A DNA stretch of 64,000 bases from Phycisphaerales bacterium (GTDB lineage Bacteria > Planctomycetota > Phycisphaerae > Phycisphaerales > UBA5793), in the NCBI GenBank assembly GCA_020852515.1, contig JADZAS010000016.1:250155-314154 (forward strand), in the 5' to 3' direction. The first letter of the stretch is position 1. Every line of letters starts with the position of its first letter. A program made the translations under genes and the position numbers. The notes beneath the pieces were generated by a model that searched no databases, was not told where the DNA came from, and was given only the letters and a program-made list of their open reading frames with translations. Below are positions 48,888 through 52,463 of the stretch, piece after piece.

Positions 48888-49424
48888 TCAAAACGAGTCG
48901 AGATCTTCCCAAAGACTCGATGTCGCCGTCTGCAAATCGCTCGCGAGCGATCCGTACGCCCACTCATCGCCCTGGCTGACCAGTGAATCCACCGAAGCGG
49001 TGATGTCGCTCATCAGCGTGCTCGTGGCCACGTTGAATTCGCTCTCGAACTGCTCATCGATCGGCGCCAGTTCGGTGTTCTCTCCGACATCCGTCACCAG
49101 CGGCTGCTGTTCATTGTTCCGCTGAGCCTGCACGCTGAACAACATTGCGATGGTGATCGACAGCACGACCACGGCGGCGAGCGACGCCATGATCGGCCAG
49201 GCGGACCAGGCGCGAGCCGGCAGCATCGACGGGCCGTCTTCATCGACGAGCCTCAGCGCCGGCTGATCGCGAACCTCGGCCCGCGACAGGTGCCGGCGGC
49301 TGGCCTCGAAGATGCGCCCCGCCACGAGCGATTCTTCGTTGCCGGGCGCGTGCATCCGGATCAATCGCTGGTCGATCTGCTCGATCCGGACGTCCGGCTT
49401 TTCGGGAATGTATCGTTCAGTCAT
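48888..49424 (-). CDS. Single-pass membrane protein, likely anti-sigma partner
   Basis: A 178-residue protein: cytoplasmic N-terminal part of about 75 residues (PDVRIEQIDQRLIRMHAP, EASRRHLSRAEVRDQPA), one membrane helix (IMASLAAVVVLSITIAMLFS) and an acidic extracytoplasmic part. Its ATG overlaps the sigma-factor stop as ATGA, a typical anti-sigma arrangement. No zinc-binding HxxxCxxC motif is visible, so it is not a ZAS-type anti-sigma. Role inferred from position and topology. Confidence 0.65.
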   Translation of the reverse strand: MTERYIPEKPDVRIEQIDQRLIRMHAPGNEESLVAGRIFEASRRHLSRAEVRDQPALRLVDEDGPSMLPARAWSAWPIMASLAAVVVLSITIAMLFSVQAQRNNEQQPLVTDVGENTELAPIDEQFESEFNVATSTLMSDITASVDSLVSQGDEWAYGSLASDLQTATSSLWEDLDSF

Positions 49425-50017
49425 GATGTTCCCGCCTTTCGGGCAGGTCGGGGTGTAGTCTGATCTTCCGGCGAGTGTTCGAGCAGATCGCGGAGCTTTC
49501 GCAACGCGCGGTGCTGACGGGCGAGCACGGTGCCCAGCGGCTCGTCGAGCAGTTCGGCCATCTGCTTGAAACTGAGCCCGCCGATGTAGCGGTACTCGAT
49601 GATCTGCCGGTCAGCCGCCGAGAGTCGCTCGATGGCCCCTCGCAGGGCGACGTGCTCGTCGTCGTCGCGCGGAACAAAGCCGTTGCGCGAGGGCGCGGCC
49701 CGCTCGTCAAGGGCGGACTGCTCGACCGCGGTCGCCTGCCTGCGGCGCCGGCGGATGTCATCGCGCAGCCGATTGACCGCGATGCGGAAGATCCATGCTT
49801 CAAACTTGCCCTGCTCGACATAGCCGGTGTTTCCCGTCAACTTCGCCGCCACGGTGCAGAAGACGCTCTGGGCGATTTCCTCCGCCAGTTCCGCGTCGCC
49901 GCACTGCGACTTGAGAAGGCCGTAGACGCGAGGCGCGTACCGGTCAACGATTGCCCGCCAGGCGCTCTGGTCACCGCGCGAGGCCAAGTCCAGGGTGGTG
50001 TCCAGCGCCTCGTCCAT
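49421..50017 (-). CDS. ECF-family RNA polymerase sigma factor
   Basis: A 198-residue alternative sigma factor. The sigma-2 region is WRAIVDRYAPRVYGLLKSQC with AEEIAQSVFCTVAAKL and KFEAWIFRIAVNRLRDDIRR (the usual W-I-xx-N-xxxD-xxR). The sigma-4 region is IERLSAADRQIIEYRYIGGL and FKQMAELLDEPLGTVLARQH. I chose ATG 50015-50017; upstream in-frame codons are unlike sigma factors. It heads the operon with the membrane protein and the secreted helical protein and diverges from a lipoprotein gene. Confidence 0.92.
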   Translation of the reverse strand: MDEALDTTLDLASRGDQSAWRAIVDRYAPRVYGLLKSQCGDAELAEEIAQSVFCTVAAKLTGNTGYVEQGKFEAWIFRIAVNRLRDDIRRRRRQATAVEQSALDERAAPSRNGFVPRDDDEHVALRGAIERLSAADRQIIEYRYIGGLSFKQMAELLDEPLGTVLARQHRALRKLRDLLEHSPEDQTTPRPARKAGTS

Positions 50018-50135
50018 GCCTTTTCCAGTGGGTTCAACGCCGCGCCCGGCCGAATATTGCCCGATTCCGCTCTTCCAGCCGCCGCCGGGGGCCGGATAAC
50101 GGCTGCACAACGATAGTCTTCGCAAGGTCCGACCA

Positions 50136-50816
50136 ATGCTCCACCGCGTCCACATCCTCCGCCTGCTGCCGGCCTGCCTGCTGTCGCTCTGGATAGGCTC
50201 GCTCGCCGCCTGTTCGTCGAGCGGTCCGCAGGCTCCCGCCGACTGGATCGACCGCCAGAGCGCCGCAGTGGATGCTGCGGCGTTCGACGAGCCGCAGCCG
50301 GCGATGCAGGTGCTCATCTGCCAGGGGCAGGTGCATGGCACGCACACGGGGTTGCGCATCCTCCAGGCGGACGAGGCCGCGGTGTTCTGGGATCCCGCCG
50401 GGCAGTACGGCATCAATCGCAGCGAGGTCCGCCGCAGTCGCGACGTCATCGTCGAGGGCGCCCCGAGCGTGGCTGAATACGTGCGCTGGCGTCTGGAGGG
50501 CGCGGAAGATTCAGCCGTGGCGCTGTATGAATGGCAATTGCCCGCCCAGCGCGCCGCCGAACTGGCCGCGATCCTCACCCACGAAGCCTCGGTTCCCGAG
50601 GGCGAAGAGGAGTTTGAAACGACGACGATCGGACTCTTCTGCTGCCAGGCAGTCTGCAGGTTTCTCGATCGCTATGCGCGCGATGAAATGTCCATTCCAG
50701 AATTCTGGTTTCGCCCGGAGCATCTCGGCAAGCACCTGTGGTCGCAACATCCCGACCGCGTGGGCATCTTCCACGAAGACGGCCGGATCGAAGTGTTCGT
50801 CTCGCCGACGCGTTGA
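50136..50816 (+). CDS. Predicted lipoprotein of unknown function
   Basis: A 226-residue protein with a lipoprotein signal ending GSLAACSS (C26). The mature part has mixed alpha/beta character, with LRILQADEAAVFWDPAGQYG and IGLFCCQAVCRFLDRYARDE, and ends HPDRVGIFHEDGRIEVF. No known family is recognised. It starts 118 bp from the divergent ECF sigma gene, so it could be part of that regulon. Confidence 0.7.
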   Translation: MLHRVHILRLLPACLLSLWIGSLAACSSSGPQAPADWIDRQSAAVDAAAFDEPQPAMQVLICQGQVHGTHTGLRILQADEAAVFWDPAGQYGINRSEVRRSRDVIVEGAPSVAEYVRWRLEGAEDSAVALYEWQLPAQRAAELAAILTHEASVPEGEEEFETTTIGLFCCQAVCRFLDRYARDEMSIPEFWFRPEHLGKHLWSQHPDRVGIFHEDGRIEVFVSPTR

Positions 50817-51233: not shown

Positions 51234-51250
51234 ATGACTTGAGGAGTCAT
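51234..51250 (+). promoter_or_regulatory. Hairpin presenting the Shine-Dalgarno of the basic protein
   Basis: ATGACT (51234-51239) and AGTCAT (51245-51250) pair perfectly around the loop TGAGG, which holds GAGG of the ribosome site, 7 bases before the ATG at 51252. The loop display could favour or gate ribosome access. Confidence 0.5.
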
Positions 51251-51251
51251 C

Positions 51252-51917
51252 ATGAGCAAGACGTACAACTTTGGCCGCACCTTCAAGACGAGCGTTCAGA
51301 ACGGCAAGACGCCCTACAGCGTCGTCGAGAACATCGCCAGCAAGTATCGCAAGACCCCCGCTTTCGTGTGGGCCAACCTGAAGAAGAACGGCTACGCGTT
51401 CTGCACGAAGTTCAACGGCAAGTCCTTCTGGTTCCCCACCTTCTCCTGCAAGACCAACAGCAAGAACTGGAAGAAGACCGAAGCGACCATCTGGCCGCAG
51501 TTCATCCAGTACGCGCTCCAGCAGGGCTGGATCACCCCCGCCCAGTGCTACAACTGGACGACGAACCAGATCTGCTACCACATCAGCAACTGCTTCAGCA
51601 AGTGCTACAGCAAGCCGGGCAACTTCAATCCCAACAGCCGGAACTACAAGAACAACGTCCCCGGCCAGAACGGCAACTGGACGACCAATGGCACGTGGAA
51701 CAACACCACCAAGTCGAACACGGGCACGAAGAAGAACCGCAAGACCCGCAAGGCGACCGGCAAGACCACGCGCACCTACAAGAGCAAGACCCGCAAGACC
51801 AACAAGACCCGCCGCACCAACACCGGGCTGCGTCTCGTCGGCGCCACGGGTCGCACCCGCCGCTACGGCAGCACGCGTCGCTACGGCACCCGCCGCTACG
51901 CTCGCCGCGCCGCCTGA
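51252..51917 (+). CDS. Highly basic Asn/Lys/Arg/Thr-rich protein, no recognised family
   Basis: A 221-residue protein with 26 Lys and 19 Arg against two Glu and no Asp. Residues 1-118 look folded: FGRTFKTSVQNGKTPYSVVE, RKTPAFVWANLKKNGYAFCT, FWFPTFSCKTNSKNWKKTEA and PQFIQYALQQGWITPAQCYN, with C51, C66, and a cluster C99, C108, H110, C114, C118 that could bind metal. Residues about 119-155 are an Asn/Thr/Gly-rich linker. The tail is Lys/Thr/Arg-rich (KKNRKTRKATGKTTRTYKSK) and ends in TRRYG-like repeats. Asn and Lys are nearly always AAC and AAG, suggesting high expression. It resembles histone-tail or nucleic-acid-condensing proteins in composition only. GAGGAG precedes the ATG and a strong terminator follows. 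Confidence 0.85.
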   Translation: MSKTYNFGRTFKTSVQNGKTPYSVVENIASKYRKTPAFVWANLKKNGYAFCTKFNGKSFWFPTFSCKTNSKNWKKTEATIWPQFIQYALQQGWITPAQCYNWTTNQICYHISNCFSKCYSKPGNFNPNSRNYKNNVPGQNGNWTTNGTWNNTTKSNTGTKKNRKTRKATGKTTRTYKSKTRKTNKTRRTNTGLRLVGATGRTRRYGSTRRYGTRRYARRAA

Positions 51918-51950: not shown

Positions 51951-51962
51951 TGTCGAATCTCG

Positions 51963-52001
51963 GACAGCCGCGTTCATGATGAACGCGGCTGTCTGGTTTT
52001 T
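51963..52001 (+). terminator. Rho-independent terminator of the basic-protein gene
   Basis: GACAGCCGCGTTC (51963-51975) pairs perfectly with GAACGCGGCTGTC (51981-51993) around a 5-base loop, followed by TGG and TTTTT. This is the clearest intrinsic terminator in the window. Confidence 0.9.
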
Positions 52002-52031: not shown

Positions 52032-52463
52032 CTAGCGGTCGCGCTCCGGGATGGGGATCAAGCCGACCAGCCCCTCTGCGGTCTGGACCTCCGCCTTGAC
52101 GACCGGCTCGGGCAGGTTCGTGCTCCAGATGCCCCCGCCGCGGAACGGCTCGCCGAACTCGTCGAGAAACTCGTAGAGCGAGAGCTTCAACGAGCCGCCG
52201 GGCGGCAGATGGTCGATGTGCCGCAGGTACCGCTCGTTGAGCCAGAGGTCGAAATCATCGAGGCTCTGCGTGGTGTGGCTGACCAGTTCGATGTGCGAGC
52301 CGTCACGGAAGATCTGGACGTCCAGCGTACGAAGGATCTCCGCGTCGTACGGGTACGGCCGCGGCTCGGTGCCCTCGGTGAGCCGGCCCCCGCTCATGCA
52401 CGAAGCCTGAAAGAGCACTGCTGCGCTCATCGCCGCTGCCGCCGCCATCCTGCCGATGTTCAT
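52032..52463 (-). CDS. Small predicted lipoprotein
   Basis: A 143-residue protein with a lipoprotein signal ending VLFQASCMSG (C22), then a compact beta-rich part (TLDVQIFRDGSHIELVSHTT, DFDLWLNERYLRHIDHLPPG, SLKLSLYEFLDEFGEPFRGG). No known family is recognised. Its end faces the terminator of the basic-protein gene. The zinc-ribbon membrane protein gene lies 90 bp upstream on the same strand. Confidence 0.7.
   Translation of the reverse strand: MNIGRMAAAAAMSAAVLFQASCMSGGRLTEGTEPRPYPYDAEILRTLDVQIFRDGSHIELVSHTTQSLDDFDLWLNERYLRHIDHLPPGGSLKLSLYEFLDEFGEPFRGGGIWSTNLPEPVVKAEVQTAEGLVGLIPIPERDR

Follow-up and report, generated by a model that had tools for sequence, protein, structure and literature searches.

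A predicted winged-helix protein with a long basic tail in Phycisphaerales planctomycetes: a candidate nucleoid protein of linker histone-like architecture

The window considered here is a 64,000-nucleotide stretch of DNA from a Phycisphaerales bacterium, and the gene of concern in it encodes a 221-residue product, P0001, which a sequence-only reading had described as extremely basic, with a folded head and a histone-like tail. The open reading frame proposed there is borne out from start to stop (Table 1). By eye the gene stands alone between two short lipoprotein-like genes, at 50136-50816 on the forward strand and 52032-52463 on the reverse strand, neither of which has a Pfam match, and it looks monocistronic. 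The strong ribosome site that had been reported is present as GAGGAG, and the gene does have its own intrinsic terminator; downstream of most homologues, again judged by eye, there are GC-rich hairpins followed by T-rich stretches. Upstream, on the reverse strand, is a sigma-70 gene (49421-50578) with regions 2 and 4 and, in the predicted reading frame, an N-terminal extension of about 200 amino acids, and after it comes a gene for a small membrane protein (48888-49424, also reverse) which by eye resembles an anti-sigma factor and has no Pfam match. Open reading frames related to this pair adjoin the homologous gene within the genus.

Table 1. Coordinates in the window of the P0001 gene, its predicted parts and its control elements
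Feature	Position	Strand	Basis or remark
Perfect 6-bp inverted repeat ATGACT-TGAGG-AGTCAT	51234-51250	+	Encloses the Shine-Dalgarno
Shine-Dalgarno GAGGAG	51241-51246	+	5 bases ahead of ATG
Gene for P0001 (winged-helix/basic-tail protein, 221 aa), stop included	51252-51917	+	Homologues, codon usage, dN/dS
Predicted winged helix-turn-helix, residues 8-62	51273-51437	+	AlphaFold2, Foldseek
Second helical unit, residues 70-118, with the Cys cluster inside	51459-51605	+	AlphaFold2
Asn/Thr linker and acid-free K/R/T-rich tail, predicted to be disordered	51606-51887	+	AlphaFold2, charge
Conserved C-terminus TRRYARRAA, family end R[RK][AV]A-COOH	51888-51914	+	29/30 homologues
Intrinsic terminator, 17-bp stem with TTTTT directly after it	51960-51996	+	

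P0001 is the product of a real gene under purifying selection: no pair tested has a whole-gene dN/dS as high as 1, and for the head alone the values are low (0-0.32). Evolution is faster in the tail, where dN/dS is 0.13-0.84 within the genus and 0.48-1.65 in three close pairs of other lineages; few changes are involved in these three, and in two very close pairs the tail exceeds 1. The composition is as had been described, with 45 Lys and Arg, two Glu and no Asp, giving a pI of 10.9 and a net charge of +0.195 per residue, the runner-up among 121 open reading frames having +0.087. The codon statistics cover part of the genome: the region of the ribosomal operon and, as the source of the 121 open reading frames, the window with five further stretches of 20 kb each (about 164 kb). 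With ribosomal proteins as reference the codon adaptation index of the gene is 0.829, the 17 ribosomal-protein genes themselves having a median of 0.70 and a maximum of 0.787, and the background of 121 open reading frames (P0001 included) a median of 0.586 with none above P0001. Amino acid composition could be a partial cause. The preference for AAC and AAG to which attention had been drawn is there in the counts (24 AAC to 2 AAT for Asn, and AAG for all 26 Lys), but by itself it says little, since the genome background already stands at 76% for both codons. Taken together, codon usage, Shine-Dalgarno and terminator look like those of a highly expressed gene, as had been suggested.

What might the head be? 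An AlphaFold2 model of the head, used in place of the full-length model in which the tail is unresolved, was built from 23 sequences and has a pLDDT of 87.6, rising to about 91-94 for residues 11-50. Helices at residues 8-16, 21-31 and 36-45 are followed by strands at 49-54 and 57-62, and then by helices at 70-91, 96-101 and 104-118; three helices leading into a two-stranded wing, here centred on the family's KFNGQW[IV]Y motif, is winged-helix topology. The sequence-only reading was right in that the head is modelled as folded and had overlooked that its topology is that of a winged-helix DNA-binding domain. Foldseek matches in the PDB are mainly to winged-helix proteins (the ArsR protein 6j05 with probability 0.80, and HlyU, BlaI, MecI and MarR types) with weak E-values, the best being 0.10, and profile searches yield weak winged-helix echoes (Mnd1 4y66 and a MecI model) with E of at least 0.01. 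Because the Foldseek E-values are weak, the assignment rests on topology and on AlphaFold2 confidence, and on that footing residues 8-62 are predicted to form a winged helix, with residues 70-118 being possibly a dimerisation or accessory part.

The remainder of the protein is of a different nature. In the full-length model the pLDDT is 59 overall and below 50 for residues 153-221, with no structure predicted for the tail, and residues 119-221 as a whole have a net charge of +0.28 per residue; model and composition together support the division into a folded head and a disordered basic tail. The TRRYG repeats that had been noticed in the tail were found as RRYGSTRRYGTRRY. Across 24 homologues the tails comprise 19% Thr, 17% Arg, 14% Ser and 14% Lys (63% for the four combined) and 0.2% Asp plus Glu; their length varies, and the net charge of the homologues ranges from +20 to +59. 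In one homologue (L038, 2453-3163; found a second time in L097) the winged helix is flanked by a basic tail at either end, and in another (L039, 1522-2307) the tail runs to about 130 residues and is built of KRSTSIKAKR-like repeats. Conservation within the tail is highest at its extreme C-terminus, which the sequence-only reading passed over: 29 of the 30 homologues end in [RK][RK][AV]A, often as RRYRRAA or RRYRKAA. The same ending occurs in 1 of 173 background open reading frames, a set in which the window, and so probably the P0001 gene itself, is included.

The gene is carried by all five genomes of the genus, at 72-100% identity, with more distant homologues in the same family and order, and profile searches of the order Phycisphaerales found carriers in 14 of 251 genomes. 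Scanning 84,980 species genomes brought up 17 named loci, all belonging to Phycisphaerales, Phycisphaeraceae or Planctomycetota MAGs and several of them overlapping with genomes already present in the other homologue searches; inspection of the conserved neighbourhood added six homologues. The set compared consists of 30 homologous proteins of 155-262 amino acids, all from Phycisphaerales-type planctomycetes. Class- and phylum-wide profile searches of samples gave no true member beyond the order, a weak match to a helix-turn-helix-like stretch in another planctomycete being judged due to chance. Searches of Pfam, NCBIfam, PADLOC and PDB sequences gave no significant match for P0001, the sole PHROGs match, at E 0.003, is to a family without assigned function and covers 31 residues within the region of the winged helix, and literature searches found no paper on these proteins. 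By sequence comparison, then, the family matches none that has been described, and we regard it as an undescribed family of Phycisphaerales planctomycetes. As the gene is conserved in relatives and its head matches no enzyme or cell-wall family, two of the three objections that the sequence-only reading had foreseen do not arise.

In another family of the order (f3) the homologue has a cyclophilin-TPR gene on one side and ACT-pair/menaquinone genes on the other, and 16 of the 30 ACT-gene loci fetched have a homologue within 1.5 kb; this shared locus argues for vertical inheritance with losses. With carriers amounting to 14 of 251 genomes in the order, P0001 is not a core organiser of the chromosome and its loss is tolerated in most lineages. 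The f3 carriers have bigger genomes than the non-carriers (median 3.95 versus 2.7 Mb; Mann-Whitney p ~8e-5, uncorrected for phylogeny), and p is 0.006 when the carriers are restricted to the four from the order sample; phylogenetic confounding may lie behind this link.

How does the protein stand among those that package bacterial DNA? All 21 genomes searched for HU have it, the window's genome in two copies (G000:C16:248155-248421 and G000:C16:53811-54095), one of which lies upstream of the window at a distance of ~1.7 kb; the second HU gene of the genome has basic extensions flanking the HU fold on both sides. Hc1 was found in 59 of 61 genomes searched, that of the window included, where the Hc1-type protein, nearly universal among the relatives searched, has ~62 amino acids (G000:C30:241788-241949). 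Because the HU and Hc1 genes coexist with it, P0001 is an addition to these proteins and not a replacement. That it belongs to neither of them, nor to H-NS, had been surmised and is upheld: it does not match the Hc1 profile (PF07432), the HU/IHF profile Bac_DNA_binding (PF00216) or the H-NS/Lsr2 family profiles in Pfam and NCBIfam, and HU and Hc1 are encoded by separate genes.

Eukaryotic chromatin offers an architectural parallel. Linker histone H1 has a GH1 winged helix and long disordered K-rich basic tails with very few acidic residues. P0001 resembles it, in architecture only, by its predicted winged helix and disordered, acid-poor basic tail (on both sides in L038/L097). Unlike H1, it has no detectable sequence relation to the linker histones, neither P0001 nor any of 13 members matching the Pfam linker_histone (GH1) profile and H1 being absent among the 50 PDB Foldseek matches listed; its family's tails are of T/R/S/K where those of H1 are of K/A/P; and it adds a three-helix unit and a conserved RRYRRAA-type C-terminal motif. 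The likeness to H1 is one of convergence, not of family membership. HU, and tailed HU such as mycobacterial HupB, are abundant basic nucleoid proteins, sometimes with an H1-like tail, but P0001 differs from them in fold. With the chlamydial and PVC-group Hc1 and Hc2 it shares an origin in PVC-group bacteria, basic character and, presumptively, DNA binding, but its tail, unlike theirs, is preceded by a predicted folded winged helix; the size of Hc2 is described as varying through lysine-rich pentamer repeats (PMC2848022). Bacillus Rok and archaeal Sso10a and Lrs14/AbfR1 are proteins with winged-helix domains that have a part in genome organisation or bind at many places in the genome (PMC2978689, PMC4941522, PMC12529230). 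A winged helix, in its case predicted, is what P0001 has in common with these three, but no sequence similarity to them was detected in the PDB search. To our knowledge none of these winged-helix nucleoid proteins has a long Arg/Lys tail. The predicted fold of residues 8-62 is likewise that of the MarR, ArsR and BlaI/MecI repressors, from which P0001 is set apart by the lack of any family match above threshold, by its basic tail and by codon usage typical of high expression. Nucleoid-associated proteins are found on the nucleoid and are commonly small, abundant and of low sequence specificity (Schwab and Dame 2024, PMC11894785), a description which the size and codon usage of P0001 fit.

The nucleic acid-binding, chromatin-like character envisaged in the sequence-only reading thus receives support from the predicted winged helix and the basic tail. 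We infer binding, low specificity, abundance and compaction, and consider, with moderate confidence, that P0001 is a nucleoid protein, abundant and binding DNA largely without specificity, which is H1-like by convergence. The winged-helix head would dock on double-stranded DNA, the three-helix part would probably support or pair the head, and the long K/R/S/T tail would neutralise and bridge neighbouring DNA, much like H1 with its globular domain and tail; H1-like compaction is proposed to follow from that combination. In this role P0001 would supplement HU and Hc1 as a further factor that compacts or coats the DNA.

RNA-binding and ribosomal proteins, however, can have basic tails too, and the main rivals to a nucleoid role are an RNA- or ribosome-associated protein and a specific transcription factor. 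As to the former, P0001 could be a lineage-specific ribosomal or RNA-condensing protein, possibly with feedback at its own Shine-Dalgarno hairpin: it is acid-poor and highly basic with codon usage like that of ribosomal proteins, an archaeal ribosome chain (9e71_BW) is among the Foldseek matches, and all five species of the genus retain the inverted repeat that holds the Shine-Dalgarno, its loop being 4 or 5 bases long. This repeat may tune translation of P0001. However, it is not evident in homologues outside the genus, and the predicted fold of the leader is no stabler than that of shuffled sequences (z 0.32), leaving a strong regulatory RNA fold unsupported; moreover the gene lies outside any ribosomal or translation operon and its patchiness within the order is unlike that of ribosomal proteins. 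We think this account unlikely.

A sequence-specific winged-helix transcription factor of MarR/ArsR/BlaI type, whose tail would only raise affinity or aid sliding, is rather improbable. The predicted head does resemble bacterial winged-helix repressors, and the palindrome ATGACT-N5-AGTCAT at the gene's own translation start is unique, but this very uniqueness tells against it: an exact palindrome occurring once in a genome of 4.7 Mb is not a DNA operator of a regulon. Neither do a codon bias beyond that of ribosomal proteins and an acid-free tail of ~100 residues befit a specific regulator, and the flanking genes of the families compared share no regulated pathway, the cyclophilin-TPR gene, ACT pair and menaquinone gene of one family having as their counterparts in the window a sigma factor and lipoprotein-like genes.

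The sequence-only reading also raised a possible metal site at C99, C108, H110, C114 and C118. The residues are where it placed them, but a conserved site they are not: C99, C108, C114 and C118 are present in 5 of the 30 homologues, all from the window's genus, their positions being mostly L, M, F or Q in the others, and a metal-binding site is rejected as a feature of the family. A genus-specific metal site is possible and would not define the protein. That P0001 is a zinc or redox switch acting through this cluster is very improbable, even with the cysteines kept among the five species and many homologues being Cys-rich; since the cluster is so restricted, and two homologues (L031 and L035) lack cysteine altogether, the fold and function of the family do not need it. 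Least probable of all is a domesticated phage or mobile-element product, associated with DNA packaging or a coat, for which patchy distribution and the placement of two members from another family (f6) inside the f3 part of the gene tree might speak, but the fixed locus in f3 and the lack of relatives of P0001 in IMG/VR and in phage and plasmid collections speak against it.

To return to the nucleoid reading, some Planctomycetes have nucleoids that are unusually condensed, through proteins that are not known; for Gemmata no histone homologue was found, only HU proteins (PMC3440768). P0001 is a concrete candidate condensing protein for its order, with a predicted H1-like architecture absent from Pfam and NCBIfam, and it would represent an independent evolutionary route to ‘winged helix plus basic tail’. 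That architecture, together with the confinement of similar proteins to some Phycisphaerales, makes an undescribed bacterial chromatin protein possible, and the patchy presence allows relatives with and without the gene to be compared. A bolder version, which we put forward tentatively and think somewhat doubtful, has P0001 as a bacterial counterpart of linker histone, present in high copy and compacting the chromosome of some planctomycetes in addition to HU and Hc1, while proteolysis by way of a built-in degron at the C-terminus sets its level.

The degron notion derives from the conserved end of the protein. ClpX C-motif-2 substrates have ends rich in basic residues, such as RRKKAI in MuA, RAKKVA in YbaQ and HARKVA in PaaA (PMC9775585), and the P0001 C-terminus resembles these in sequence. 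The conserved R[RK][AV]A-COOH may expose P0001 to ClpXP-type proteolysis, through which, it is proposed, its level could be reset; if so, chromatin composition would be coupled to regulated proteolysis. The tmRNA of the genome (L120:1504-1853, reverse strand) encodes a short, acid-free SsrA tag, ANTQFALAA, which ends in LAA.
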